DNA of 64,000 bases from Vicinamibacterales bacterium (GCA_029940535.1 JAPYUM010000013.1:1-64000); one strand, 5' to 3'; shown: positions 5,752-64,000, numbered from the stretch's first letter. Program-made: numbers and translations. The notes: generated from the letters alone by a model not told the origin.

Positions 5752-8574
5752 CTATACGACCGCGGCCACCTTCTCCACGGTGAAAATTTCGACGACATCA
5801 CCAATTTTCAGATCGGCGTAGCGTTCGAAGGCCAGACCGCACTCCAGACCGTTCTTGACTTCGTTCACGTCGTCCTTGAATCGCCGCAACGAGCCGAGCC
5901 GGCCTTCGTGGATCACGACGTTGTCTCGAAGTAGCCGAGCCTGCGTGTCGGTGGCTCGATTGATCTTGCCAGCCGTGACCAGACAACCGGCGGCGGCGCC
6001 AAACTTGGGCACCTTGAAAATTTCGCGTACCTCCGCCGTGCCGACCTGTACCTCCTTGATGGTCGGATCGAGCAACCCGGCCATCGCCTTCTTGATCTCC
6101 TCTGTCACGTCGTAGATGACGCGGTGGAGTCGAATATCGATTGCCTCCCGGTCGGCCATGGCCTTCGCGTTCCGGTCAGGTCGGACATTGAACCCGACGA
6201 TGATGGCGTTGGAGGCTGCTGCGAACACGACATCGCCCTCATTGATGGCTCCCGCGCCACTGCTGAGAAGCCGCACTTTCACCCGGTCATCACCCAGCTT
6301 GCTCAGCGCGTCGGCGAGGACCTCGGCCGAGCCTTGAACGTCCGCCTTCACGATGATCGGGAGCTCCTTGGTTCCGCCTTCGGCGAGCTGCTGCTGCAAC
6401 GATTCCAGGGTCAAGCGACCGCCCCGGGCGCCAAGTGTCTTGGCCTTTTCCTGGCTCTGGCGAAGGACCGAGATCTGACGGGCCTTGGCCGCGTCGTCCA
6501 CCGCCTGGAACGTATCGCCGGGCTGCGGTAGCCCCGTCAGACCCAGCACCTCGATTGGGCTCGACGGACCAGCTTCTTTCTGTTTGTTGCCACGGTCGTC
6601 GATGAGTGCCCGTACCTTCCCGACAATCGACCCGGCGATGAAGTTGTCGCCGGTACGCAACGTGCCGTCCTTGACCAAGACGGTGGCGACGGGCCCACGC
6701 CCGCGGTCGATCTTCGCCTCGAGCACCGTGCCGCTCGCGCTTCGCTTCGGATTGGCTCTGAGTTCTGCCAGCTCCGTGACCAGCAACACCATTTCGAGCA
6801 ACAGATCGAGGTTCTCCTCCTTCTTGGCGGAGACTTCGACCGTGACGGTGGTCCCGCCCCAGTCTTCGGCGGTCAACCCGAGTTCCGAGAGTTCCGTCTT
6901 GACGCGCTCAGTGTTCGCGTTCGCCTTGTCGATCTTGTTGATGGCGACGATGAGTGGCACTTCCGCCGCCTTCGCGTGCTCGATGGCCTCCTTCGTCTGA
7001 GGCATGACCCCGTCGTCTGCCGCGACCACCAGGATGACGATGTCGGTCACTCGAGCGCCACGCGCTCGCATCAACGTGAACGCCTCGTGGCCAGGGGTGT
7101 CAAGAAACACGATACGTTTGTTCTTGGTCTCGACCGAGTAGGCCCCGATGTGCTGGGTGATACCGCCCGCCTCACGTTCGGCCACGCGCGACTTCCGGAT
7201 GGCATCGAGCAACGTGGTCTTGCCGTGGTCGACGTGGCCCATCACCGTGACCACGGGAGCCCGCGGAACGAGGTCACCCTCTTGGGTGGATGTTGATTCG
7301 ACGTCGACGACCTCTTCTTCGTACGAGCGCATCTCGACGTCGGCGCCGAATTCGCGCGCCACGATGGTGGCGGTCTCGGTATCGAGTGTCGTATTGATGT
7401 TCATCATCATCCGACGCTCGATCATTTTCTTGAGCACGTCCTTGGCGCGCAGTTCGAGCTTGTCGGCGAGGTCCTTGACCGTCATGCCCTCGGCGAGCGA
7501 GATCGTCCGCGTGATCGGGGGCGGCGGCGCCGGCGTGTACGGAGCGGACGGACGTGGTGGCCGCCGCTTGCGACCGCCGGGTGGGCGAGGCGGTGGTCTG
7601 AAATGCGGTCGGTATCCGACCGCAGGGGTGTTCGGGCGAATCGCGGGGCGCGCGGGGACAGCCCTGACCCCGCCGGCCGGCGCACTCGGTCGCGGCGCTG
7701 CCGCGATCGGACGTGACCCGGGTCGTGGGCGCGCCGGCCGCGGCAGCGCGGCGGTGCCAGTCGGTGCGGCCGGCGTGGGCCTGGTCGGCACCACTGTGGT
7801 CTTCGGCTGTGGCGGCGTGAGCAAGGGCGCCGTTTTCTCGACGCGCAGCCTCATCGTTGGTGGCACGACTCGGCCCGTGGGGGCCACCGGTGTCGTCGCG
7901 GCGGGCGGCGTCGGCGTCGACTCGGCGTCTGCCGCTGGAGTGGACGGTGCTTCTGACTTCGTCGTCGGCACTGGCGCACTGTCGTCGGCGGTCGGCGGCG
8001 CTGGTGGAGTGGGCGCCGGTGCGTCTGGCACCGTCGCGGCCGGCGTCGGAGCCGCGTCGGGCAGCGTGGCCGTCGGCTGCAACGGCGCGGTCGGAGCCGC
8101 GGCCGGGTCTTCGATCTTGAGCGATCGCAGCCTCGGTGCGCTCGACGGTCGGCGCGCGGGCGGCGGCGCCTCAATTGGTGGAGTTGGCTCCGGAGCCGGT
8201 GTCTCGGCTACGGGTGGCTCGACAACAGCGTCGCCCTCCTCCTCGGTTTCCACTGGTGGCACGACGGCCGGCGCCTTGACCAGTCGTGGCGGGCCCAGCC
8301 GTGGGCGCATCGCCGGCTCAGGTGTCTTTGCGCTCTTCGCACTCTTTCGGCCCTTCCCGGACGAGGCCGCCTTCTGCGAGAACAGGGGGCCTGTCGGCAG
8401 GCTCACGTCGCGTTCGCGCGCCAGACGCTCGGCGAACTGCCTCGCGACGATTTCCTCGATGGTGCTCGAGGCACTCTTTACCTCGATGCCATGCTCCTGC
8501 TTGAGAAGGTCCATGACCTCCTGACTCGGGATGCCGAGCACCTCCGCGACCTTGTAAATCCGGATCGTGGCCAA
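5752..8574 (-). CDS. infB: Translation initiation factor IF-2
   Basis: The GTPase that delivers initiator tRNA to the 30S subunit. It is long (940 aa). An IF2_N-type helix ([23 protein letters not shown]) is followed by about 280 residues rich in Pro, Ala and Thr, then a second IF2_N segment ([24 protein letters not shown]). The G domain has GHVDHGKT near 445, DTPGHEAF and NKIDK. The C-terminal domains end in KIGDVVEIF. The low-complexity linker produces a misleading 458-aa Gly-rich antisense ORF. It lies 33 nt downstream of nusA, and no ylxR-like gene sits between them. Confidence 0.97.
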
Positions 8575-49480: not shown

Positions 49481-50869
49481 TCACAACATCGGTGGAATGA
49501 GAAACAACGCGATCACGGTCACGACAAACAGCACCAGCGCGATGATGCCGGTGTAACCGAGGACGTCTCCGAACTTCATGCGGGTGACGGTCAGAATCGG
49601 GATCGCCCAGAACGGCTGGATGAGGTTGCTGGTGGAGTCGCCGTAGGCATACGCGAGGACGGTGGTTGTTGCCGACACCCCCAACTCTCGGGCGGCCGGG
49701 AGCAGGTAGGGCGCCTCGATCAGCCACTTCGAGCCCCCCGACGGGACGAACACATTCACCATGCCCGAGTAGAGGTAGACGATCACGGGGAAGGTGTCGG
49801 TCGTGGCGACCTGGACGAACAGCGAGCCCAACCAGTCGCCGAGTCCGGTGCCGTTGATCACCCCGAAGATACCGGCATAGAAGGGAAACTGCAGAATGAC
49901 GCCTGACGCCGTGCGGGCGCCGTTGCCGAACGCCTTCACCAGGTTGGCCGGAGTGCCCTGTAGCAGCATGGCGCCGATGAGGAACACGGCGTTGTAGGCG
50001 TTGATGGTCCAACTGGCCCCGAACCCGCGGGTCATGATCGAGTGCCCCAGGGGGTAGCCAATCAGGACCGCCGCCAGGAAGATCCAGCCCCGGTACGATT
50101 CCAGCTGAGCGGCGGGCGTCGTGGGTATGGTCTCGTCCTCCAGGGACGGCATGATGGCGTTCAGCTGGTCCTCGGTCAGCGTCCGCGCGTTCTGTCGCGG
50201 ATGCAGCAGGGCCACCATCACCAGCGCGACGGCGGCGACCACCGTGAGATAGATCAGGTTGAACGAGTTGAACAGCGTTTCCGTGACCGGCAGAATCCGA
50301 TCGAGCAACGGCTCGGTGCCCGGTGGCGGGGTGGTGATCGGATTCCCCGGTGTGGCCAGGATGAGCGGGGCCGAGCCCGACAGGCCGCCGTGCCAGACGG
50401 TGCCGATGCCCAGGTAGGCGGCGGCGATCATGAGTCGGATGTCAGCCTTGGGATTCCGTCTGGCCACGAACGGTACGAACAACGCGGACGCGATCACGCT
50501 GGCGGCCCAGTTGAAATACGCGATGACCATTGAGTACGCGCCAAGCAGGACCACGGCCTGCACCGGCTTGGTGACATCCGGTCGACTGGCCAGCCAGTCG
50601 AGGAACCGGTAGGCCGGCCGCGACGAGACGCAGGCGTGGGCGGCAATCATGGCGATGGTGAACTGCATCGCCAGCTCGAGCAGCGACCACATCCCACCGC
50701 CCCACGCGAGCACCGTCTCGTTGAGGCCGGCACCGGCGCCCACGATGGCGAGCAGAATCGCCATGACCGTCAGCATCATGCAGACGACCCAGGAATCGGG
50801 TATCCACCGCTGGGTGAACCGGGACAGGGCTTCTCCGAGGTTGCCGACAAAGCGGATGAGCGCAGACAT
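49481..50869 (-). CDS. Short-chain fatty acid transporter family protein (AtoE/TIGR00366-like)
   Basis: The 462-aa polytopic protein starts at the ATG at 50869 (MSALIRFVGNLGEALSRFTQRWIPDSWVVCMMLTVMAILLAI), just after the MFS stop. The family pattern includes WGGGMWSLLELAMQFTIAMIAAHA, SRPDVTKPVQAVVLLGAYSMVIAYFNWA, YLGIGTVWHGGLSGSAPLILATPGN and NVFVPSGGSKWLIEAPYLLPAARELG. About 11-12 membrane helices. It probably takes up short-chain organic acids. Its place after methylmalonate-semialdehyde dehydrogenase and an OFA transporter fits an acid-utilisation operon. Confidence 0.88.
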   Translation of the reverse strand: MSALIRFVGNLGEALSRFTQRWIPDSWVVCMMLTVMAILLAIVGAGAGLNETVLAWGGGMWSLLELAMQFTIAMIAAHACVSSRPAYRFLDWLASRPDVTKPVQAVVLLGAYSMVIAYFNWAASVIASALFVPFVARRNPKADIRLMIAAAYLGIGTVWHGGLSGSAPLILATPGNPITTPPPGTEPLLDRILPVTETLFNSFNLIYLTVVAAVALVMVALLHPRQNARTLTEDQLNAIMPSLEDETIPTTPAAQLESYRGWIFLAAVLIGYPLGHSIMTRGFGASWTINAYNAVFLIGAMLLQGTPANLVKAFGNGARTASGVILQFPFYAGIFGVINGTGLGDWLGSLFVQVATTDTFPVIVYLYSGMVNVFVPSGGSKWLIEAPYLLPAARELGVSATTTVLAYAYGDSTSNLIQPFWAIPILTVTRMKFGDVLGYTGIIALVLFVVTVIALFLIPPML

Positions 50870-50871
50870 AA

Positions 50872-52095
50872 CTAGGCGGTCGTCGTTGCCGTTGGGTTCT
50901 TGGCGGCGAGGAGGCAAAGCAGGGAGATGACCGAGAGCACCGCGGCGCCGAAGAACGCGTACTGATAGTTGCCGAAGGTGTCATACACGAATCCGGCGAG
51001 CTGCGAACCGGCCACCGCCGCGATGCCCCAGGCGAGAAACAACAGGCCGTAGTTCACCCCGAAGTGTTTGGTGCCGTAGAAGTCGGCCGAGGTGGCGGCG
51101 AACACCGCGAGCAGCGTGCCATAGCAGTAGTAGACGGCAAACACGCCGACGACGAAGAAGAGCACATTCGATCCGAACATATACAGCGCGGGCATCGCGA
51201 CGGCCGAGACCACCACCATCAGCTTCAGTACGTTCAGACGTCCGAGGTTGTCTGACATGGCTCCCGAGAGGACCCGTCCGGTGGTGTTGCCAATCGCCCC
51301 CGCGACCAGACCGATGAGGGCCACGCTGCCAATACCGGCCTCGATGCCAAACGGTACCAGCTGACTGATGAGCCCCAGTCCCGCGATCGCGCCGAAGAAG
51401 TAGGCCAGGAACAGAAAATAGAACGAGCTGCCGCGCAGCATCTCGGCCGTTGTGGTCTCGCCACCGACACGAGCCACGGCCGATTTGATCTGGGTGGGGT
51501 CCCAGCCGGCCGGCGCGTAGCCGTCGGGCGCCGGTTTGAGCAGCCAGGCGCCCACAAGTGAGAGCACCAGGAACACTATGCCGTAGATGCGGAAGGTCGA
51601 CTCCCATCCCACGCTGGGAATCAGAATCTCCGCCGCGATCGGTCCGAAGATACCGGAGCCGGCGCCGTAGCCCCCGACCGCGATGCCGATGGCGAGTCCG
51701 CGTTTGTCAGGGAACCACTTCGTGACGACCGGCATGGCGATCGAGTAGCCGATGCCGTTGCCGGCCCCGGCGAGCAGACCGTAGGCGAGATACAGCACGG
51801 TCAACGACGACGTGTAGCTGGAGAGAAAAAAGCCGAGGCTGAACAGTACCCCGCCGACGACCGCCAGCGGCCGGAAGCCGACGATGGCGTGCAACCGGCC
51901 GGCGATCACGAACGTGACCGCCATGGTCAGGACGCCGATGCTGAACACCCACGACGTCTGCTGGCGGACCCAGCCGAATTCCTGCTCGAGCGGCAGCACG
52001 AACACGCTCCACGAATAGAACGTGCCCAGGACGAGGTTCAACATGGTGCCGCCGACCAGCGGCATCCATCGGTTCTCTGTGGGTGTGTCAGCCAT
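50872..52095 (-). CDS. MFS transporter, OFA (oxalate/formate antiporter) type
   Basis: The 407-aa, 12-helix transporter, starting at the ATG at 52095 with GAGGA before it. OFA-type features are the early WMPLVGGTMLNLVLGTFYSWSVFVLPLEQEFGW, GLLAGAGNGIGYSIAMPVVTKWFPDKRGLAIGIAVGGYGAGSGIFGPI (MFS motif A region) and a duplicated second half. Substrates of this group are small mono- or dicarboxylates; the exact one is unknown. It sits between mmsA and the AtoE-like gene. Confidence 0.86.
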   Translation of the reverse strand: MADTPTENRWMPLVGGTMLNLVLGTFYSWSVFVLPLEQEFGWVRQQTSWVFSIGVLTMAVTFVIAGRLHAIVGFRPLAVVGGVLFSLGFFLSSYTSSLTVLYLAYGLLAGAGNGIGYSIAMPVVTKWFPDKRGLAIGIAVGGYGAGSGIFGPIAAEILIPSVGWESTFRIYGIVFLVLSLVGAWLLKPAPDGYAPAGWDPTQIKSAVARVGGETTTAEMLRGSSFYFLFLAYFFGAIAGLGLISQLVPFGIEAGIGSVALIGLVAGAIGNTTGRVLSGAMSDNLGRLNVLKLMVVVSAVAMPALYMFGSNVLFFVVGVFAVYYCYGTLLAVFAATSADFYGTKHFGVNYGLLFLAWGIAAVAGSQLAGFVYDTFGNYQYAFFGAAVLSVISLLCLLAAKNPTATTTA

Positions 52096-52145
52096 GGGTC
52101 CTCTGTTCTCCCGTGCCGTTCGAGCGTGTGCTGGACGCACTCAGC

Positions 52146-53654
52146 CTACTTCATCGTCGGCATATTGAGGTTCACCGCGTCACGCTGTTCGGGCCAGCGG
52201 GCGGTGATCACCTTGGTGCGGGTATAGAAGCGCACACCGTCCGGGCCGTGCACATGGAGGTCGCCAAACAGCGAGCCTTTCCAGCCCCCGAACGAGAAGA
52301 ACGCCATCGGCACCGGAATGGGTACGTTGACCCCCACCATGCCAACCTGGATCTGGTTCGCGAACCGACGGGCGGCCGCGCCCGACCGGGTGAAGATGGC
52401 CGTGCCGTTGCCATACGGGCTCTCGTTGACGATGCCAATCGCCTCATCTTCGGTGTCGGCGCGCACCACCACCAGCACCGGTCCAAAGATCTCGTCGCGA
52501 TAGATCGACATGTCGCGGCTCACGTGGTCGAACAGCGTGGGGCCCACGAAGTGGCCGCCCGCGTGTCCGTCGACCGCCAGGTCTCGGCCGTCGAGCACGA
52601 CCGACGCGCCTTCGCGTTCACCGGCTCCGATGTACCCCAGCACACGCTGGGCATGGTCGGCCGTGATCAGGGGCCCCATCTCGACGCCATCGCGTTGGCC
52701 GGGACCGACCTCAAGCGCCCGCGCCCGAGTGGCCAATCGCGACACGATCGCGTCGCCCGCTTCGCCCACCGCCACCACGGCCGAGATCGCCATGCACCGC
52801 TCGCCGGCGGACCCGTAAGCGGCGCCGATGAGCGCGTCGGCGGCCGCGTCGAGATCGGCATCAGGCAGCACGACCGCGTGATTCTTGGCGCCACCCAGCG
52901 CCTGGACCCGCTTGCCGGCCGCGCACGCCGTTTCGTAGACATGTCGCGCGACCGGCGTGGAACCAACAAAGGATACGGCCGCGACATCGGGGCGACCCAG
53001 AATCGCGTTGACCGCCTCCTTGTCGCCGTGCACGACGTTGAGCACGCCGTCCGGGAGCCCCGCTTCTGTCAGTAGCTCCGCCATCAGCATGCTGGCCGAC
53101 GGGTCTTTTTCGGACGGCTTCAGCACGAACGTGTTTCCGCAGGCCAGTGCCACCGGCACCATCCACAGCGGGCACATGATGGGGAAATTGAACGGGGTGA
53201 TCCCCGCGCACACACCCAGCGGCTGCCGGGTGCTGTGGGAATCGATCCCGGTTCCGACGTCTTCGGCGTGCTCGCCCTTGAGCAGGTGCGGGATGCCGGT
53301 GGCGAATTCCACCACTTCCAGGCCGCGTTGCACCGAGCCGGCGGCATCTGGCAGGGTCTTCCCGTGTTCTTCGGTAATGAGGGCGGCCAGGTCTGGGGTT
53401 CGCCGCTCCAGCAGGTCTCGGAACCGCATCAGGATGCGGGCCCGGCGCAACGGCGTGGTGGCGCGCCAGGACGGGAACGCCGCACGCGCGCTCGACACCG
53501 CGAGATCGATATCGGCGTCGTTGGCAAACGGTACCGTCCGCACGACCTCGCCGGTCGCCGAATTGGTGACGGTGCCCTCACGCGAACCCTGCGCGGCGTG
53601 GGGTTGCCCATCAATCCAAAACGGCACGGTCGACACCGCGGTCTGTGTGGTCAT
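52146..53654 (-). CDS. mmsA: CoA-acylating methylmalonate-semialdehyde dehydrogenase
   Basis: The 502-aa aldehyde dehydrogenase. The catalytic cysteine lies in AAYGSAGERCMAISAVVAVG, the MMSDH version of the motif. NAD-binding blocks are GVCAGITPFNFPIMCPLWMVPVALACGNTFVLKPSEKDP and AVSFVGSTPVARHVYE. It converts methylmalonate semialdehyde or malonate semialdehyde to propionyl- or acetyl-CoA in valine, inositol or beta-alanine catabolism. Two carboxylate-type transporters follow in the same direction. Confidence 0.93.
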   Translation of the reverse strand: MTTQTAVSTVPFWIDGQPHAAQGSREGTVTNSATGEVVRTVPFANDADIDLAVSSARAAFPSWRATTPLRRARILMRFRDLLERRTPDLAALITEEHGKTLPDAAGSVQRGLEVVEFATGIPHLLKGEHAEDVGTGIDSHSTRQPLGVCAGITPFNFPIMCPLWMVPVALACGNTFVLKPSEKDPSASMLMAELLTEAGLPDGVLNVVHGDKEAVNAILGRPDVAAVSFVGSTPVARHVYETACAAGKRVQALGGAKNHAVVLPDADLDAAADALIGAAYGSAGERCMAISAVVAVGEAGDAIVSRLATRARALEVGPGQRDGVEMGPLITADHAQRVLGYIGAGEREGASVVLDGRDLAVDGHAGGHFVGPTLFDHVSRDMSIYRDEIFGPVLVVVRADTEDEAIGIVNESPYGNGTAIFTRSGAAARRFANQIQVGMVGVNVPIPVPMAFFSFGGWKGSLFGDLHVHGPDGVRFYTRTKVITARWPEQRDAVNLNMPTMK

Positions 53655-54366: not shown

Positions 54367-54577
54367 GTCACCCGGCCGGCGCGTCGACGCTGCCGTCCAG
54401 CGTCGGCTCGCGAAGCCGCCGCCTGCTTGACACCCTTTTTCGGCATCTGCGAAGATTGGCCGTTTGTTCTGTTCAACTTGTGATGTGCTCGTGGCCGTGG
54501 CGGGCCAACGGTGTGATCGCGTCGTTCGACGCACACGCCAACTGCGAGACTCGGTATCGCTCCGGAAGGGGGTCGTG

Positions 54578-56752
54578 ATGGTGAAGCGCTTCGCAGGTGG
54601 GTTGATGGTGGCGGCGCTCGTGGGTGCTTCGGTCTTCTGGCTCACGACACCAGGTCGAGCCGCCGACGGCGCCATCACTGGCGCGGTCACCAGTTCGAAC
54701 GGTCCGGAGGCCGGGGTCTGGGTCATTGCGGAGACCACCGACCTGCCGACCAAATTCATCAAGACCGTCGTCACCGGCGATGATGGCCGCTACCTGGTCC
54801 CCGATCTGCCTGAGGCCTCCTACAAGGTGTGGGTGCGCGGCTATGGTCTGCTCGATTCGGCGGGGGTGACCGCCGAGCCGGGCGACACCGTGGCGCTCGA
54901 CGTCACCGTCGCGGCCACGCCGGTCGACGCGGCCCAGATCTATCCGGCCAACTACTGGTACTCGCTCATCGAGCCGCCGGCGCCGAGCGAGTTTCCCGGC
55001 ACGGGCGACGACGGGAACGGGATCGCCGCCACGCTGCAGCATCAAGAGCAGTGGGTCGACGTCCAGAAGCAGGGCTGCATGCTCTGCCATCAGCTTGGCA
55101 ACCGCATCATTCGCGAGATCGACAACCTCGAGCAGTTCGACTCGACGCTGGCGGCCTGGGACCACCGGGTGCAGATGGGCCAGCGCGGCTCGCAGATGAC
55201 CAACGTCATGAGCCGGTTCGGCCGACAACGGGGTCTGCAGATGTTCGCCGATTGGAGCGAGCGGATCGCCGCCGGCGCCGTGCCGCCGGCGCCGCCGCGT
55301 CCCGCCGGGGCGGAGCGCAACGTGGTCATCTCGATGTGGGAATGGGGCACCGAGATCGACTATATCCACGATGAGGTTGCGACCGACAAACGGAATCCTC
55401 GGGTCAACGCGAACGGTCCCGTCTACGGTGTGAATATCTCGAACGACGAACTGGCGATGCTCGACCCGGCCACCAACCTGGCCACCAACTTGAGTATTCC
55501 GCTGCGCGTTGATCCGGAGACGGTGCCAGGGATGATCGCGCAATCGATGCCGGTGCCGTCGCGCATGTTCGGAGACGAGCTCATCTGGAACGACCCGGCC
55601 AATCCGCACAACCCGATGATGGACCAGAAGGGGCGGGTGTGGATGACCTCCGCCATTCGGAACCGGGCCAATCCGGACTATTGCAAGGCAGGGTCGGACA
55701 ACCCGTACGCCCAGTATTTCCCGCTGGACAGCGGGTTCCGGTCCGCCGTGTTCTACGAGCCGGACACGCAGAAGTTCGTGATGATCGACACGTGCTACGG
55801 CACCCATCACCTGCAGTTCGCCGAGGACGAGAACGACACGGTGTACTTCAGCGGTGGCGGACAGGTCATCGGGTGGCTCGATACGAAGCTCTACGACGCC
55901 ACCGGAGACGAACGGGCCGCACAGGGTTGGTGCCCCACCGTGCTCGATACCAACGGGGACGGCGTCATCACGAAGCCCTGGAACGAGCCGGCCCGCCGCG
56001 GCCAGACGGCGACTCATGACGCCAGTCGAGACACGCGGGTGGTGGTGGGCAGCTACGGGGTGATCGGCGACCCCACCGACGACAAGGCGGTCTGGATCAG
56101 CTCCAATCGATTCCCGGGACGTCTGGCGCGCCTGCACGTTGGCGACAATCCACCCGAGACCTGCCTGACGGAGATGTTCGAGGTGCCGTCGGTGCTGGAT
56201 GCCACGGTCCCGAAGGAGAAGACTGGGTTTGGCTCACGCGGTCTCGACATCGATCGGGACGGCGTTATCTGGACGGCGCTGTCGGGTAGCAGTCACTTCG
56301 CCAGCTTCGATCGTACCAAGTGCCAGGTCCACAACGGGCCGACGACGATCGAGGGACGGCACTGCGTGGATGGCTGGACCCTGTTCCCGACACCCGGACC
56401 GGTTGTACAAGGCACCGACGTCCGTGCCGACTACCACTACTACAACTGGGTCGACCAGTGGAACACGCTCGGGCTTGGTGAGGACGTCCCGATCGCGACG
56501 GGGTCGAATTCCGATTCGCTGCTGGCCTTGGATCCCGACACGGGTAACTGGACGGTCTTGCGGGTGCCGTATCCGCGCGGATTCTTCACGCGGGGGCTCG
56601 ACGGCCGCATCGACGACCCGAACACGGGCTGGAAGGGACGCGGGGTGTGGGCCACCTACGGCGAGGCGGCCACCTGGCACATCGAAGGCGGCCAGGGGGT
56701 CAAGCCGGGTATCGTGAAATTTCAGGTGCGTCCAGACCCGCTGGCGAACTAG
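54578..56752 (+). CDS. Secreted protein: regulatory-like domain, c-type haem motif and beta-propeller-like region
   Basis: The 724-aa protein starts at the ATG at 54578 behind GGAAGGGGG, with signal RFAGGLMVAALVGASVFWLTTPGRAA. Residues about 30-110 form a carboxypeptidase-regulatory-like beta-sandwich (GAITGAVTSSNGPEAGVWVIAE..TVVTGDDGRYLVPDLPEASYKVWVRGYG). A single CMLCH haem motif lies near 167. The rest has repeated propeller-like blades (GFGSRGLDIDRDGVIWTALSGSSHFASFDRTKC), like Vgb/SMP-30-type lyases. Function unknown; electron transfer or oxidation in the periplasm is inferred. A perfect TTGACA (54427-54432) lies upstream without a convincing -10. Confidence 0.8.
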   Translation: MVKRFAGGLMVAALVGASVFWLTTPGRAADGAITGAVTSSNGPEAGVWVIAETTDLPTKFIKTVVTGDDGRYLVPDLPEASYKVWVRGYGLLDSAGVTAEPGDTVALDVTVAATPVDAAQIYPANYWYSLIEPPAPSEFPGTGDDGNGIAATLQHQEQWVDVQKQGCMLCHQLGNRIIREIDNLEQFDSTLAAWDHRVQMGQRGSQMTNVMSRFGRQRGLQMFADWSERIAAGAVPPAPPRPAGAERNVVISMWEWGTEIDYIHDEVATDKRNPRVNANGPVYGVNISNDELAMLDPATNLATNLSIPLRVDPETVPGMIAQSMPVPSRMFGDELIWNDPANPHNPMMDQKGRVWMTSAIRNRANPDYCKAGSDNPYAQYFPLDSGFRSAVFYEPDTQKFVMIDTCYGTHHLQFAEDENDTVYFSGGGQVIGWLDTKLYDATGDERAAQGWCPTVLDTNGDGVITKPWNEPARRGQTATHDASRDTRVVVGSYGVIGDPTDDKAVWISSNRFPGRLARLHVGDNPPETCLTEMFEVPSVLDATVPKEKTGFGSRGLDIDRDGVIWTALSGSSHFASFDRTKCQVHNGPTTIEGRHCVDGWTLFPTPGPVVQGTDVRADYHYYNWVDQWNTLGLGEDVPIATGSNSDSLLALDPDTGNWTVLRVPYPRGFFTRGLDGRIDDPNTGWKGRGVWATYGEAATWHIEGGQGVKPGIVKFQVRPDPLAN

Positions 56753-56796: not shown

Positions 56797-59187
56797 ATGG
56801 CACGGATGAACAGGCATAAGTTGATGACAAGGCTTAAACAGACGGATACATATTGGGCGGTGGTAACGGTGGCGCTGCTGGTTCTCGCCGCCCCCGCCAG
56901 CTCGGCCGGCCAAGGGGCGACGGGATCCATTGATGGCACGGTCGCCGACGAAAGCGGCGGTGTCATGCCCGGCGTCACGGTGGGCGCGTCCATTGGCGGT
57001 GCCACGCGCTTCGGGGTCAGCGATACGCGGGGCCGGTTTGAGATTGCCGACTTGGCGACCGGGCGCTATGTCGTCGAGGCCGTGTTGTCCGGCTTCCGCG
57101 GCGACACCGTGTCGGTCACAGTGACCGCTGGCGTGACCTCTGGGGTCAACCTCAGGTTGGAGATCGCTCCTCTGGCCGAAACGGTCACCGTGACCCGCAC
57201 CGAGCAGACGCTGTCTGTCGTTCCGAACTCGATCGCGGTGGTGGAGCGGGACCAGATCGAGTTCGCCGAGCGTCGCACGTCGCTCGACGAGTCGCTGCGT
57301 GGTATCCCCGGGTTGTTCGTGCAGAATCGCCGAAATTACGGCTTGTCGGGTGGCATCGGCATCAGCATCCGGGCGCCGCAACCGCGGTTCGGTCTGCGCG
57401 GCGTCGCCATCATCCAGGACGGGATTCCGATCACGACCGCCGACGGCACCACGGAGCCGGGCAACGTCGATCTGGGGTCGGTGGGGCGCATCGAAGTCAT
57501 TCGCGGTCCCAGTTCTGTCTTGTACGGGAACTCGGCCGGCGGGGTGATCAACCTCACCACGACGTTCGACCGGTCGCGTCGGCTCACCATCCGCCCTGAC
57601 GTGCAGTTCGGCAGCTACGGCTACAACCGGCAGCAGATCCGGGCCGACGGCGGCGACGACAAGACACAGTTCATGTTCAGCGCGAGTCGGTTCGAAACCG
57701 ACGGATTCCGCACGAACAGCCATGCGGAAATCATCCAGACGAACCTTCTGGTGCGCCGCGAGCTGGGACCGAACACCGAACTGCGCGGCGTGTTCAATTT
57801 CAACGACACGCCCTACGCTGAAAGTCCAAGCTTTCTCAATGAATCCGACGCGCGGAGCGACCCGCTCAGGGACAGTGCCGGCGTGTGTCTGTCCGGCGCC
57901 TGTATGGCTCGGGGCGTCGCATTGTCACGTAATTGGGGCGAGGGTGCGAGACAGGGGCAGGGTGGCCTGACCCTCGAGCATCGATTCAGCGAGACCGATC
58001 GTCTCCGGGTCACCGGGTGGGGCATGTGGCGAAGTCTCGACGCGGTCGGGGCGTTTCGCAACGTCGAGCTTGGTCGTAACGGGTTCGGATTTCGGTCGGA
58101 GTATCTCGGTGGGACACAGGCCGGCACGGTTGGCCTCGACTGGGCGGCGGGGTTCGATGTGGCGTCGCAGCAAGACGATCGGATGGAATTCGGTCAGGTG
58201 GCTCCCGCGGTGAGCGGGGAACGAGCGACGAGCGGGTCGCTGCAAGTCGACCAGACGGAGGACGTCTTGTCCGCGGGGCCGTTCGCGCAGATCGGGATCT
58301 CGCCGAACGACCGGGTTCGGTTCAGCGCCGGTGTCCGGTGGGACTACTACGACTTCACCGCGGGTGACCGCAAGCTCGACGACGGCGACCAATCCGGCGG
58401 CCGGACCATGAGCCAGGTCAGTCCGTCCGTCGGGGTCACCGTGGCCGCGGCGGAAGGCGTGAATCTGTTCGGCAATGTGGCGACCGCTTACGAGACGCCA
58501 ACTACCGTCGAGCTGTCACAATCACCAACCGGCGCCGGCGGGTTCAATCAGGAGCTCGGTCCCCAGGACCTGACCAGTGTCGAGTTCGGGGCGCGCGGGT
58601 TGATCAGTCCGGCCCGGCTGCGATACGAGGCGACCGTGTTTGTGTCGACCGTCGACAACGCCCTCGTGTCGTTTCAGAACCCGGATGATCAGACCTTCTT
58701 CCGCAACGCCGGCAAGTCGTCGCGCGACGGGTTGGAGCTGGCGCTCGAATGGGTGCCGACATCCAGCTTCAGTACGCGGGTAGCCTACACCTATCAGGAC
58801 TTCGTGTTCGAAGAGTTCGTGACCGGCGGCAACGATTTCGCCGGGAATCTCGAGCCCGGTGCCCCGCCGCATCGCGTGTTCTTCGGTGCGAATTACATCG
58901 CCCCCTTCGGACTGCGGTCCGGGGCGACCGTGCGCTGGGTCGACAGATTCACGGCGAACAATGCCAACACCGTCTACAACTGGTCCTACGCCGTCGTCGA
59001 CCTCCGCTTCGGGTACGACGGTCGCTGGGGCGGGGTTGACGTGCGACCGTTCCTCGGCATCGACAATCTGTTCGACGAACGCTACAACTCGTCGATTATC
59101 ACGAACGCGTTCGGTGGCCGGTACTTCGAGCCGTCGCCGGATCGCGAATTCTACGTTGGTCTTACGATTGGGACCGGTGTGCGCTAG
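56797..59187 (+). CDS. TonB-dependent receptor with N-terminal carboxypeptidase-regulatory-like domain
   Basis: The 796-aa outer-membrane receptor. The signal peptide includes YWAVVTVALLVLAAPASSAGQG. A regulatory-like beta-sandwich (GSIDGTVADESGGVMPGVTVGA..TRGRFEIADLATGRYVVEAVLSGF) precedes the plug (LDESLRGIPGLFVQNRRNYGLSGGIGISIRAP..IQDGIPIT..VGRIEVIRGPSSVLYGNSAGGVINLTT). The 22-strand barrel follows, with TonB-box-like TVTVTRTEQ before the plug. The first ATG lies very close to the preceding gene; an ATG three codons later is also possible. The ligand cannot be predicted, though the adjacent haem-motif protein suggests joint use. Confidence 0.92.
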   Translation: MARMNRHKLMTRLKQTDTYWAVVTVALLVLAAPASSAGQGATGSIDGTVADESGGVMPGVTVGASIGGATRFGVSDTRGRFEIADLATGRYVVEAVLSGFRGDTVSVTVTAGVTSGVNLRLEIAPLAETVTVTRTEQTLSVVPNSIAVVERDQIEFAERRTSLDESLRGIPGLFVQNRRNYGLSGGIGISIRAPQPRFGLRGVAIIQDGIPITTADGTTEPGNVDLGSVGRIEVIRGPSSVLYGNSAGGVINLTTTFDRSRRLTIRPDVQFGSYGYNRQQIRADGGDDKTQFMFSASRFETDGFRTNSHAEIIQTNLLVRRELGPNTELRGVFNFNDTPYAESPSFLNESDARSDPLRDSAGVCLSGACMARGVALSRNWGEGARQGQGGLTLEHRFSETDRLRVTGWGMWRSLDAVGAFRNVELGRNGFGFRSEYLGGTQAGTVGLDWAAGFDVASQQDDRMEFGQVAPAVSGERATSGSLQVDQTEDVLSAGPFAQIGISPNDRVRFSAGVRWDYYDFTAGDRKLDDGDQSGGRTMSQVSPSVGVTVAAAEGVNLFGNVATAYETPTTVELSQSPTGAGGFNQELGPQDLTSVEFGARGLISPARLRYEATVFVSTVDNALVSFQNPDDQTFFRNAGKSSRDGLELALEWVPTSSFSTRVAYTYQDFVFEEFVTGGNDFAGNLEPGAPPHRVFFGANYIAPFGLRSGATVRWVDRFTANNANTVYNWSYAVVDLRFGYDGRWGGVDVRPFLGIDNLFDERYNSSIITNAFGGRYFEPSPDREFYVGLTIGTGVR

Positions 59188-59294: not shown

Positions 59295-60410
59295 ATGACC
59301 GTCCAACCCGCTCAAGAAATGGGTTTCGACCGCGCCAACGAAGTCGTTCAGCGGTTCCAGAAAGAGTCCACCAAGTGGCTCTACGGTCTCGACGAGGCGG
59401 CGCGCACGCTCTCGTGGGCGTTCTTTACCCTGTTGCCGTATACGGACAAGCTGAGCCAGAGCAAGCTGCTGCGTCAGCCCCACGTGATGTTCAGGGGACC
59501 GACCGGCACCGGCAAGACCGACCTGGTCAGCGCCTGCGCGATGGCGATCGACGCCAAGTTCGAGCGTATCCAGGGGATGCCGACCTACATGCCCGAGGAC
59601 ATCCTGGGCTACGAGACCATCGTCGAGGAAACGGACGGCAGCCGCAAACTGCAGTTCAAGCCTGGCAAGTTGATGGCGCACATCGTGCTCATCGACGAGG
59701 ACAACCGGCTGTCGGGCAAGACCAAGGCGGCGGTGCTCGAAGGGATGGAGGAGAGTTCCGCCACCCTGAGCTCAGACTACGGCAACCTCGCCGAAGGCAA
59801 GATGTTGCCGCTGTTTCCCTTGTCGTGCGATTTCTCGGACATCACCGGGCCGCGCTTCTTCATGGTGATTTGCACCGAGAACATCTTCGGTGAAGAGGAA
59901 GGCACCTTCGCCAATCCCGTGGCGCAGCTGGACCGCACCACGCTGTCCATCAATATGATGGATCCGGAGAGCGAGGAAGATGAGTACAAGATCAGCGCCC
60001 GCAACGTGGTCGGCCGCAAGGTCGAGAAGCTGACCGACCTGTATGAGGTGCTGGAGATCGCGAATTACATCTACGAGAACGTCGAGATGTCGGAGTACGG
60101 CCAGCAATACAAGGTGCGACTCATTCGCAACACTCGGCCCCACCGTGTCCAGGGGCGGGCCGCCCGAACGGTCAAGGAATACATCCGGGTCGGGATCTCG
60201 CCGCGCGTCCATTTTCACATCGAAGCGGTGGCCCGCACATTCGCATTTTTCAACGGCGACCTCAAAGTGACGCCGGACCATATCAAGGCGGTGGCCGGTC
60301 CCGTGCTGGCCCACCGGCTGGTGCTGCGCGAGGGTATGGAGTTCTCGGTCGACAAGGAGGAGCTGCTACAGCAAATCCTGCGGGACATGGAGGTTCCGCC
60401 GTGGAAGTAG
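59295..60410 (+). CDS. MoxR family AAA+ ATPase
   Basis: The 371-aa protein has Walker A GPTGTGKT (68-75), a Walker B-type HIVLIDEDNRLSGKTKAAVLEGMEE (near 129-136) and the MoxR pattern MPTYMPEDILGYETI. The sensor region is FFMVICTENIFGEEEGTFANPVAQLDRTTLSINM. MoxR ATPases act as chaperones, often for metal insertion or complex assembly, with DUF58 and VWA partners. It starts the operon that runs to the window edge and overlaps the DUF58 gene by 10 nt. Confidence 0.92.
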   Translation: MTVQPAQEMGFDRANEVVQRFQKESTKWLYGLDEAARTLSWAFFTLLPYTDKLSQSKLLRQPHVMFRGPTGTGKTDLVSACAMAIDAKFERIQGMPTYMPEDILGYETIVEETDGSRKLQFKPGKLMAHIVLIDEDNRLSGKTKAAVLEGMEESSATLSSDYGNLAEGKMLPLFPLSCDFSDITGPRFFMVICTENIFGEEEGTFANPVAQLDRTTLSINMMDPESEEDEYKISARNVVGRKVEKLTDLYEVLEIANYIYENVEMSEYGQQYKVRLIRNTRPHRVQGRAARTVKEYIRVGISPRVHFHIEAVARTFAFFNGDLKVTPDHIKAVAGPVLAHRLVLREGMEFSVDKEELLQQILRDMEVPPWK

Positions 60411-61318
60411 AGGAACTTTATGCTCGGTTTCGTGACATCAAGCACGGCATCCGAGCCCGAAAGCGCTCTACGAGCATGCACTTCGGCGAGCACAAGAGCG
60501 GATACAAGGGAGCTGGCTACGATATCGTCGGAGTCGATCAATGGAGACCGGGACAGCCTCTGAAGGACGTCGCATGGAACATCAGCATGCGTACCTATCC
60601 GGAGAAGCTGTACCGGATCGAGCGGATGGAGCCCAAGGAGCTCCGCACGCTCATCGTGTGCGACCTGTCGTATTCCACGCTGTTTCGGGTGTCGCAGGCG
60701 TCGACCAAGGCGCTGCTGATGCTGGATCTCCTCGGCAACATCGGGCTGACTCGGTCCAACGTCAGGGATCCGGTGGGGTTGCTGGGGTACTCCGATCGCA
60801 TCGAACTCTTCATGCGGCCAAAGCTGGGATCGTCGCAGATCTTCCACATGGCCCATCAGATCTTCGACAAGTTGAATCTCGAGCGCGAGTTTCCCTCGAA
60901 GCGGCCGGCCCACCTTCGGGTGGCGCTCGATTTCATGCTGGCGCGGCTCAAGACCCGGCACTCGGTCGTGCTGTTGACCGACCTCGTGGACATCGTGAAC
61001 GACCCGGACGCCATCGACTACAAGCGCCTGAGGACACTCGGCTCGAAGCACGATATGATCGTGCTCATTCTTGATGACCCGAACGAATTTCGCGTCAAGA
61101 GCCGATTCGGCTATATCCGAATCTCGGATATGGAGACGGGCAAGCAGACCGTGATCTCAGCCCGCAAAGCGGCCGCCATTCGTCGTCGCATCGAAGAGGT
61201 GCGCGAAACCGTGGCCTACAGGTTGAAGCGGAAGACCGGCATCGATGCCTGCGTGGTGACACCGGATAATCACATCGAGGAGCTGCCAAAGTTCCTGATC
61301 TCTCGCACTGCACGATAA
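60401..61318 (+). CDS. DUF58 domain protein
   Basis: The 305-aa protein starts at a GTG inside the end of moxR. It has the DUF58 hallmark (STSMHFGEHKSGYKGAGYDIVGVDQWRPGQPLKDVAWNISMRTYPEKLYRIERMEPKELRTLIVCDLSYSTLFRV) and a VWA-like fold with CDLSYST in place of a perfect MIDAS DxSxS. No membrane segment, so probably cytoplasmic. It is a typical partner of MoxR. Its TAA overlaps the next ATG by one nucleotide. Confidence 0.9.
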   Translation: MEVEELYARFRDIKHGIRARKRSTSMHFGEHKSGYKGAGYDIVGVDQWRPGQPLKDVAWNISMRTYPEKLYRIERMEPKELRTLIVCDLSYSTLFRVSQASTKALLMLDLLGNIGLTRSNVRDPVGLLGYSDRIELFMRPKLGSSQIFHMAHQIFDKLNLEREFPSKRPAHLRVALDFMLARLKTRHSVVLLTDLVDIVNDPDAIDYKRLRTLGSKHDMIVLILDDPNEFRVKSRFGYIRISDMETGKQTVISARKAAAIRRRIEEVRETVAYRLKRKTGIDACVVTPDNHIEELPKFLISRTAR

Positions 61319-62460
61319 TGGACCAACAAGTGGACATGACAGGCACCGTAAGCATGCCAAGCACGATACGCACCTCTACGATCGCTCTCAGCGCCCTGTT
61401 CTTGGTAGCCACGGCCGCGCTGGCCCAGCCGCCGGCGGTGGATGACGTCCCGATGGGGCCGGTACGGGTCGAGACCCTGGAGCTCGAGCCCACGGTCGTC
61501 AAGACTGGTGACCTGATTCTTCAACGCTATCGCCTCCGGTTTCCGGATCTGGTCGCGGAAGGACAGGAAATCATCATCCTCGAAGACCGCGTGGCGCCAG
61601 AAGCCTTGCCCGTGCACCCCTTCGAAGGGGTGTCGCTGACGGTCGACAAGGACCTCGTGGAGGGCGAACACATCTGGGAGTTCGAGTACGGGTTCCGGCT
61701 GGTCGACCCGAACAAGATGACCTATCTCCTGCCGAACTTCAGCTTCTACTACCTCGTGCGTGACCTGGGCGAGGATATCGAAGACGCCGAGGTGCAGCAG
61801 GTCGACGGCGGACAAGGGCTCGTGCGCTATGTCACGTCGATTACCGATGAGCCGCTGTTGAACATTCGCGACACTATCGAGCTCGGCGCCTTCGCCGGAC
61901 GGGCCACCTTCTTTCAGACGCTGGGCTGGGCGGTGGCTCCGCTGCCGCTCCTGCTCTGGTTCGTCATGCTCGTGCGGTTCGCGCGCAAGCCAAAGGCCGT
62001 CTCGCTGGAAAAACAGCAAGAGGCCGACGAGCTGGCGAGACTCGAGGCGCAGATTCCGGTGCAGCCGTCGATCTGGGAGGCGCGGCGCGCAGTGAATCGC
62101 GAGCTGAAGACGTTGCAAGATCTCCCGCCCGGGGCGGACACCGCGCAGCTCGCCGGCTACGAGCGGAGTATGGTGCTGGCGTTGCGCGACTATCTTCTCG
62201 CCGATGTTCCGGGGCTGGTCCCCGGCGACACGGCGCTGGACATGCAGCGCCAGGTCGGCGAGTTGAAGGATAGTCACCGCCGGGAGGCGCTCGGGGTGTT
62301 GACGGACCGTCTCGTCGCCTACCAGCGGGGGCTCGAGACCAGCGGGGCCGCGCCCATCGACAGTCCACCGCTGGAGTCCGATGTACTCGCTGACGCCCTC
62401 AAGAAGCTGCGACCGCACGTTCGGCTCCTGAACAACATCAAGTCGCTGGTGGGACGGTAG
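61318..62460 (+). CDS. Exported single-pass membrane protein of the moxR operon
   Basis: The 380-aa protein has a signal-like N-terminus ending IALSALFLVATAALAQ. A periplasmic beta-rich domain follows (VRVETLELEPTVVKTGDLILQRYRLRFPDLVAEGQEIIILEDRVAPEAL..WEFEYGFRLVDPNKMTYLLPNFSFYYLVRD). Then come a membrane helix (LGWAVAPLPLLLWFVMLVRFA, about 200-220) and a helical cytoplasmic tail. The layout recalls BatD-like or MxaA-like components, but neither is clearly matched. Translation is coupled to the DUF58 gene (TAATG). Confidence 0.78.
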   Translation: MDQQVDMTGTVSMPSTIRTSTIALSALFLVATAALAQPPAVDDVPMGPVRVETLELEPTVVKTGDLILQRYRLRFPDLVAEGQEIIILEDRVAPEALPVHPFEGVSLTVDKDLVEGEHIWEFEYGFRLVDPNKMTYLLPNFSFYYLVRDLGEDIEDAEVQQVDGGQGLVRYVTSITDEPLLNIRDTIELGAFAGRATFFQTLGWAVAPLPLLLWFVMLVRFARKPKAVSLEKQQEADELARLEAQIPVQPSIWEARRAVNRELKTLQDLPPGADTAQLAGYERSMVLALRDYLLADVPGLVPGDTALDMQRQVGELKDSHRREALGVLTDRLVAYQRGLETSGAAPIDSPPLESDVLADALKKLRPHVRLLNNIKSLVGR

Positions 62461-62490
62461 AGCGGCAAGATCGAGGAAGCGGTAACGACG

Positions 62491-63621
62491 ATGTTGATGC
62501 CCTGGAACCAGTTGGTCTCGTTCCTCGACTCGGGGATACGCGAGCTGCTCGAGACCGACTTCCAGCAGATCCGCTATGGCGACGTCGGAATGGCCGTGGC
62601 TCTGGCGATCGTCGTCAGCGTCATCCTGGTGCTGACCCTGATGCGTCTGGCTGCGATCCGGAAGCGTCATTCGCGGCAGCACTCGGGGCACGTCATTCGG
62701 CCCGCGCATCGCAAGCGCCTCTGGATCCGGGCGCTGCACACGGCGCCCAAGGCGTTCCTGGCCGCCGCGCTCGTGATGTTGATCTTTTCGGTCGCCGACC
62801 CGTTCCTGACCGCCACCGAGGAAGTGAGCGGCTACGTCGAGTCGCGCGTGCGTATCGATCTCGTCGACACCTCGGGGTCGATGGCGTGGGAGTTCCCCGA
62901 CACCAACAAGTCGAAGGCCGAAGTCGCGCGAGACGCCCATCTCGAATTCCTCGAGATGCGCAAGGAGAAGAACGACCGGGTGTCCTTGTGGCTGTTTTCC
63001 ACCTATCCGTACATGGTGGATGACTTCGTCATGGACGACGAGCTGTACTACTACCAGGTCTGGGACGCGCCGTATGTGATGACCCAGCGGCTGGACAAGG
63101 CGATGGTGGTGCCGCGCGACAAGGTGCGCATCATCCCGGCCGAGGGCGACACCAACATCATTCGGCCGCTCCAGGACATCGTCAAGCACTTCGACCGCGA
63201 CGAGGCGACGGTTGGCCGCGAAGCGGACCAGAACCGCGCGGTGCTCATCATTACCGACGCGGCCGTCGACGAGTTTCCGGATGCGGAGTTCGCCGAGTTG
63301 GCCCGGCGCAACATCGTGCCCTACCTCATCTATATCAACACCAGCGACGCCCGGTCGGCGAGTTTCCTGCACCCGACGGTGCCGCAGCTGGTGGCGCAGA
63401 TCCAGGAGTACGGCGGCGACTACTTCGACGTGACCAGTGAGGACAGCCTGCTGCGCGCGTATGAGGCGATTGACGAGCGCGAGGCCGTGCGCGTCGAGTT
63501 GAAGCACCGCGCATTGAAGGTGCCGATTTTCCCGCGGTTTCTGTTGGTGGCGATGGGGTTGCTGGTGATAGGCATTCCCCTGGGGTTCGTCTCAGAACTG
63601 CTGTGGGGTACGAGTCCGTAG
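62491..63621 (+). CDS. Membrane-anchored VWA domain protein
   Basis: The 376-aa protein has two N-terminal membrane helices (VGMAVALAIVVSVILVLTLM; AFLAAALVMLIFSVADPFL), a VWA domain with the MIDAS start DTSGSMAW (near 126-130) and a C-terminal helix (FLLVAMGLLVIGIPLGFVSELLW). RVSLWLFSTYPYMVDDFVM and AVLIITDAAVDEFPD complete the fold. It resembles BatA/MxaC-like partners of MoxR and DUF58. A type II secretory role is not suggested by the sequence. Confidence 0.88.
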   Translation: MLMPWNQLVSFLDSGIRELLETDFQQIRYGDVGMAVALAIVVSVILVLTLMRLAAIRKRHSRQHSGHVIRPAHRKRLWIRALHTAPKAFLAAALVMLIFSVADPFLTATEEVSGYVESRVRIDLVDTSGSMAWEFPDTNKSKAEVARDAHLEFLEMRKEKNDRVSLWLFSTYPYMVDDFVMDDELYYYQVWDAPYVMTQRLDKAMVVPRDKVRIIPAEGDTNIIRPLQDIVKHFDRDEATVGREADQNRAVLIITDAAVDEFPDAEFAELARRNIVPYLIYINTSDARSASFLHPTVPQLVAQIQEYGGDYFDVTSEDSLLRAYEAIDEREAVRVELKHRALKVPIFPRFLLVAMGLLVIGIPLGFVSELLWGTSP

Positions 63622-63637
63622 GACACGAGGAAAGACC

Positions 63638-64000
63638 ATGCGATTAACAGACTTGATCGATAAAGAACACTCCTTCCGGTATCTCGTCGGTTTCGTGCTG
63701 GCGTTGCTGTTCTTCATCGGGGTGTCGGTGCCGTCGAGGAGCCTGGCCGGGTTCTACGCCAACCTCGAGGGCTTGAGCGACAGTGTCGAACGTTCCGACT
63801 TTTCCACTGCGGAGGAGCAGCTGGCGGAGGTGTCCGCGTTCTACGAGGGCAGCCGGGCCTGGGGCATGCAAGGGTTGGTGGACTCGTATCTGTTTCAGGA
63901 CGCGTTCCTGCAGCAGGCGTCCTACAGTTACCTGACGCGTGACTACCAGACGGTGGTCGATGATCTGGCGGATGAGGTCGACGACCCGCGGGCGTCGGAG
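63638..64000 (+). CDS. Membrane-anchored protein of the moxR operon (partial, runs off the window)
   Basis: Behind GAGGA about 6 nt before the ATG at 63638, the frame stays open for 121 codons to the window edge. MRLTDLIDKEHSFRYLVGFVLALLFFIGVSV gives one membrane helix, followed by a helical, acidic periplasmic or cytoplasmic domain (SRSLAGFYANLEGLSDSVERSDFSTAEEQLAEVSAFYEGSRAW). It starts 16 nt after the VWA stop and clearly continues the operon. The family is not recognised from this part; an MxaK-like role is only a guess. Confidence 0.72.
   Translation, partial: MRLTDLIDKEHSFRYLVGFVLALLFFIGVSVPSRSLAGFYANLEGLSDSVERSDFSTAEEQLAEVSAFYEGSRAWGMQGLVDSYLFQDAFLQQASYSYLTRDYQTVVDDLADEVDDPRASE

Follow-up and report, generated by a model that had tools for sequence, protein, structure and literature searches.

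The stretch analyzed here (the window) comprises 64,000 nt from a Vicinamibacterales bacterium (GCA_029940535.1, JAPYUM010000013.1:1-64000). At its 3' end lies an operon of six genes, R-S-A-C-K-L, which runs past the window edge and ends at contig position 65467. The genes of the operon and those adjoining it are as follows.

54464-56752, plus strand: protein with a carboxypeptidase-regulatory-like domain and a CxxCH motif; adjoins the receptor gene.
56797-59187 (start codon approximate), plus strand: PqqU-like TonB-dependent receptor, directly upstream of R.
59295-60410, plus strand: R, MoxR-type AAA+ ATPase, 371 aa (Pfam AAA_3, 1e-25; AAA_lid_2, 1e-13).
60401-61318, plus strand: S, DUF58 protein, 305 aa, GTG start (Pfam DUF58, 2e-23).
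61318-62460, plus strand: A, with a signal peptide, a predicted beta (Ig-like) domain, one transmembrane (TM) helix, and a helical cytosolic domain.
62491-63621, plus strand: C, membrane-anchored VWA protein, 376 aa (VWA_2, 7e-7).
63638-64303, plus strand: K, with one N-terminal TM helix, 221 aa at full length; the window covers 63638-64000.
Contig 64379-65467: L, second VWA protein, membrane anchored, 362 aa; the last gene of the operon, outside the window.
Contig 65496-66221, same strand as the operon: ion channel gene, 28 bp after L.

The first-pass annotation had placed five open reading frames of the operon in the window, and all five are present on the plus strand at those positions. It had also described a MoxR/DUF58/VWA core accompanied by two membrane proteins that resist naming, and this was borne out: in profile searches, the proteins starting at 61318 and 63638 (A and K) matched no Pfam or NCBIfam family. 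Since MxaA of Methylocapsa likewise matches no Pfam family, and its MxaK shows only a sub-threshold tetratricopeptide repeat (TPR), the missing match is no argument against A and K being MxaA and MxaK. By position, A is the equivalent of MxaA, C of MxaC/BatA, and K of MxaK. The R/S and S/A genes overlap, and the remaining intergenic gaps are 16 to 75 bp. The Walker A (GPTGTGKT) and Walker B (LIDEDNR) motifs of R are intact and conserved, as are the DxSxS motifs of S, C, and L, and the DTSGSM motif of C is invariant. Promoter and terminator scans returned nothing above chance levels to fix the transcript ends, and neither Rfam families nor tRNAs were found in the window.

It had been proposed that the client of the operon could be encoded beyond the window edge. 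The sequence after 64000 contains the end of K, then L and the ion channel gene, with no standard Bat set, and the proposed client did not materialize: no metal or PQQ enzyme was recognized in the rest of the contig, read to its end at 72433. The ion channel is of the voltage-gated type and was seen again near the operon in several relatives. Beyond it lies a TPR gene on the opposite strand, and further downstream are CoA-transferase and 3-hydroxyisobutyrate-dehydrogenase-like genes (L003 12920-15451; CoA-transferase subunits, all named from translations). Upstream, translations of window positions 49481 to 53654 were named as transporters and a methylmalonate-semialdehyde-dehydrogenase-like protein. 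The genes framing the operon suggest a short- or branched-chain acid catabolic region. The informative neighbor is the PqqU-type PQQ receptor, which lies upstream and inside the window. Elsewhere in the same genome, an orphan paralogue of C with 58% amino acid identity was observed on another contig (L004 8777-9931, G000:C103); it is divergent from a sigma-factor-like gene, a PQQ_2-repeat propeller gene lies near it at 6425-7834, and the 20 kb read around it held no MoxR gene or other operon genes.

When the proteins of 60 related genomes were searched, A turned up in 26 of the 28 genomes of the window's family and in 0 of 32 genomes from 14 other families of the same order. Among 396 genomes of the phylum, matches to a K profile were likewise confined to this family. 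The six-gene unit is kept in 20 further family neighborhoods, wherever the contig permits (fragmented genomes limit these synteny counts), with 54 to 100% amino acid identity, and because of this conservation the arrangement cannot be attributed to chance. Across the family, MoxR proteins are 85 to 98% identical, and A falls to about 54%. A search of 399 Pseudomonadota genomes with an S profile gave nothing comparable, its single match belonging to an ordinary Bat operon, and plasmid searches with R and S returned only ordinary MoxR/DUF58 proteins among the matches listed. Since the evidence stems entirely from a single family, neither linkage nor co-occurrence is phylogenetically independent. 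In one relative (G023, L060 7054-8158), the moxR-like gene is frame-broken, appearing as two overlapping matches in different frames, which could reflect a mutation or an assembly error.

The mxaRSACKL genes have been described for the calcium methanol dehydrogenase (MDH) of methylotrophs, where the known client is a PQQ enzyme. On plasmids of Methylobacterium, Methylocystis, and Paracoccus, mxa clusters begin with the MDH large subunit, MoxJ, MoxG, and the MDH small subunit and continue with MoxR, DUF58, MxaA, VWA, MxaK, VWA, and SRPBCC genes (DUF58, MxaA, and MxaK sometimes being annotated as hypothetical); the same mxa genes are also present on plasmids of Azospirillum and M. bullatum. When the window and its continuation were compared with annotated clusters (L065-L067), the order MoxR-DUF58-MxaA-VWA-MxaK-VWA was found in both, with identical protein types from MoxR to the second VWA gene. 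The likeness to the methanol dehydrogenase set pointed out in the first-pass annotation thus holds at the level of gene order. Both systems also have a K-type protein between the two VWA genes, lack BatD and BatE, share a similar topology, and are associated with PQQ enzymes. They differ in their company: mxaFJGI and mxaD adjoin the known clusters, whereas none of these stands beside the window operon, mxaFJGI being missing from its entire contig, and the window operon is linked instead to PQQ import or synthesis.

Sequence comparison gave a different picture of ancestry. Among the six Mxa families, each window protein had its positional counterpart as the best match in a profile comparison, but this apparently clean one-to-one case for mxaRSACKL membership was gone once Bat proteins were added, and it was rejected. 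The control used this genome's Bat operon along with three more from the family and one Pseudomonadota operon. With this control, R, S, and L are closer to Bat than to Mxa, C is equal, and K is marginally MxaK-like, a preference that rests on a short TPR-like motif; A could not be aligned and favors neither side. MxaR, MxaS, MxaC, and MxaL, for their part, resemble Bat more than they resemble the window proteins. A MoxR tree places the window and Mxa proteins in distinct clades, each fully supported and on a long branch. The predicted models of A and MxaA have in common a layout of beta domain, TM helix, and helical domain with similar helix lengths; confidence in the A model is low (mean pLDDT, 61). 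A signal peptide/TM layout similar in outline to that of A is also seen in the third gene of this genome's Bat operon, and fold searches with the A and MxaA models yielded weak Ig-like matches, none of them significant.

The MoxR, DUF58, and two VWA proteins are clearly homologous to those of the Bat operon (MoxR-DUF58-BatA-BatB-BatC-BatD-BatE), with hhalign E values of 1e-23, 4e-22, 8e-11, and 7e-17, respectively. In contrast to that operon, the window operon is without BatD and BatE, and its TPR-like protein sits between the VWA genes; the BatD profile (PF13584) matched none of A, C, K, and L. The genome's own BatD is encoded on contig C158 within a complete canonical Bat operon, which rules out the window operon as the standard one, in line with the first-pass annotation. 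From these comparisons, the operon is most aptly described as a Bat-related variant of its own, arranged in mxa-type gene order, rather than as a proven mxa member.

The receptor gene ends 107 bp before the start of R. Among solved TonB receptors, the best match of its product is E. coli PqqU/YncD (E = 1.7e-69, against 5e-16 for the next family), and its best NCBIfam model is PqqU (1.2e-89), at 301 bits versus an equivalog cutoff of 1200. The published PqqU signature, an aromatic residue at position 99 with R304 and R365 (PMC12124388), was present as F99/R304/R365 in 13/13 family sequences in a MAFFT alignment with YncD; a pairwise HMMER alignment places R304 differently. Unlike YncD, the window receptor has an extra N-terminal carboxypeptidase-regulatory-like domain, and the position of E. 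coli Lys274 is occupied by Glu in all 13 family sequences. A Lys274-to-Glu change has been modeled as a metal site for PQQ-metal co-import, and PqqU has already been reported in Vicinamibacteria (PMC12124388). We regard the receptor as a PqqU-like protein and a putative PQQ transporter. In 12 genomes, including that of the window, fewer than 350 bp separate the receptor gene from R, with both on the same strand and the receptor first; in a thirteenth the distance is about 2.3 kb. Outside the family, it was found in three genomes of one other family, where the operon is missing.

In relatives without the receptor upstream of the operon, PQQ biosynthesis genes usually adjoin it. PqqC scored over cutoff in 14/28 family genomes versus 0/32 others of the order, and eight (G005, G008, G013, G019, G020, G021, G025, and G027) carry it on the same contig as the operon, at a distance of about 3 to 15 kb. 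For representatives, pqqB, -C, -D, and -E were located in the sequence, and their identity was confirmed with family models. At least one PQQ source, PqqU or PqqC, is thus present in 27 of the 28 family genomes (receptor only, 13; PqqC only, 7; both, 7), and the one with neither is small and incomplete. The window's genus shows no PqqC over cutoff and presumably imports its PQQ.

These genomes are also rich in possible clients. A first look gave 101 to 223 PQQ-dehydrogenase candidates per family genome versus 2 to 97 elsewhere in the order; in the window's genome, 11 loci exceed the TIGR03075 cutoff, and there are more than 30 near-full-length matches. Up to 70 lanthanide (Ln)-PQQ dehydrogenases have been reported in single genomes of marine Acidobacteria and Pseudomonadales (PMC11996626). 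No MxaF/XoxF-like enzyme was found in the window's genome, where the best identity to MxaF is 38% (the query matches a Methylobacterium plasmid copy at 92%), and MxaF or XoxF as the client was ruled out on this ground. When 29 distinct dehydrogenases were aligned, 28 carried the lanthanide-type Asp two residues past the catalytic Asp, and 14 also kept the equivalents of MxaF Asn261 and Asp303 together with Glu or Asp at 177. A sorbose/alcohol-dehydrogenase-like subfamily, with 5 to 25 copies per family genome versus 0 to 2 elsewhere in the order, is a candidate client group by co-occurrence only. Members of this subfamily (L195 1501-3057, G000:C68, and relatives) were seen to be without the MxaF Glu177/Asn261 equivalents while keeping Asp-x-Asp. 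A cofactor-free reading of the dehydrogenases without these equivalents was not adopted, because P0009, when looked up, was nearest to solved sorbose/alcohol dehydrogenases.

Because the operon stands beside PQQ import or synthesis genes in genomes with dozens of PQQ enzymes, it probably helps to assemble such enzymes. We consider it likely that R-S-A-C-K-L is a lineage-specific operon for the assembly of periplasmic PQQ-dependent dehydrogenases, working like mxaRSACKL, with linkage suggesting quinoproteins as its clients. In the mechanism that we infer by analogy with the Mxa system, the ATPase R and its DUF58 partner S would act on the cytoplasmic side, while A, C, K, and L would form a periplasm-facing membrane scaffold, in which the MIDAS sites of the VWA domains may serve to bind metal or client. 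ATP-driven cycles of R could remodel the A/C/K/L complex, and this remodeling would insert PQQ and metal into exported apo-quinoproteins or keep them insertion competent. Periplasmic PQQ would be supplied through the PqqU receptor just upstream or, in relatives, by the pqqBCDE products encoded nearby. In the methylotroph system, MoxR has an important part in activating methanol dehydrogenase (PMC3893208), and the literature links MxaK and further Mxa proteins to Ca2+ insertion (PMC9260416, PMC3615186).

The chief difficulty for the assembly role is that mxa accessory genes were reported to be unnecessary for the lanthanide enzyme XoxF (PMC11845868), whereas nearly all of the aligned enzymes have the lanthanide-type Asp. 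This leaves two options: the clients are the few enzymes of the Ca type, or lanthanide enzymes are served by the variant, and the latter would be new. Also against an assembly role, PQQ dehydrogenases (up to 97 candidates) occur in other families of the order, which do not have the operon, and R, S, and L lie closer to Bat than to Mxa. A more far-reaching version of the assembly role, which we put forward tentatively and regard as possible rather than probable, is that the operon encodes a maturase for quinoproteins in general, derived from a Bat-type ancestor independently of mxaRSACKL and serving tens of different, mostly lanthanide-type PQQ dehydrogenases. It is conceivable that the upstream PqqU, with its Glu274, may deliver PQQ together with metal to the maturation pathway.

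It could be argued that the operon is instead a second, diverged version of the Bat operon that acts generally in the envelope or in stress, its proximity to PQQ genes being incidental. The better match of R, S, and L to the genome's own Bat proteins than to Mxa agrees with this notion, as does the fact that MoxR/VWA operons have many clients. However, BatD and BatE are missing and a complete Bat operon is present elsewhere in the genome, the operon is linked in different genera to distinct genes of PQQ supply (PqqU and pqqBCDE), and it occurs only in the family whose PQQ-dehydrogenase sets are the largest; we consider a second Bat operon unlikely. Service to PQQ uptake itself, for instance by assembling or energizing the PqqU receptor or a periplasmic PQQ carrier, would fit the 12 genomes in which the receptor is the immediate upstream gene, but it appears highly improbable, given that the operon is kept without a PqqU orthologue in PQQ makers (e.g., G005, G013, G014, G019, G020, G024, and G025) and that E. 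coli PqqU is not known to require genes of this kind. The least probable of the alternatives is that the operon serves the CxxCH protein (54464-56752) or periplasmic cytochromes of other kinds, the PQQ genes lying close by for reasons of respiration: the CxxCH gene is a conserved neighbor of the receptor, and syntenic with the operon, in 10 relatives, but it is missing from the neighborhood read in several operon-keeping genomes (e.g., L057, L059, and L060), and a PQQ gene is the operon's more constant companion.

In the open-access literature, we found no paper describing an R-S-A-C-K-L operon or its linkage to PqqU/Ln-PQQ repertoires. If the operon is a general maturase, MoxR/VWA assistance would not be confined to calcium methanol dehydrogenase. 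An operon of this order with PQQ linkage, in genomes that have dozens of lanthanide-type quinoproteins and no MxaF, would suggest that machines of this type serve quinoproteins in general. The family would then provide a second system for probing the roles of MxaA, MxaC, MxaK, and MxaL.
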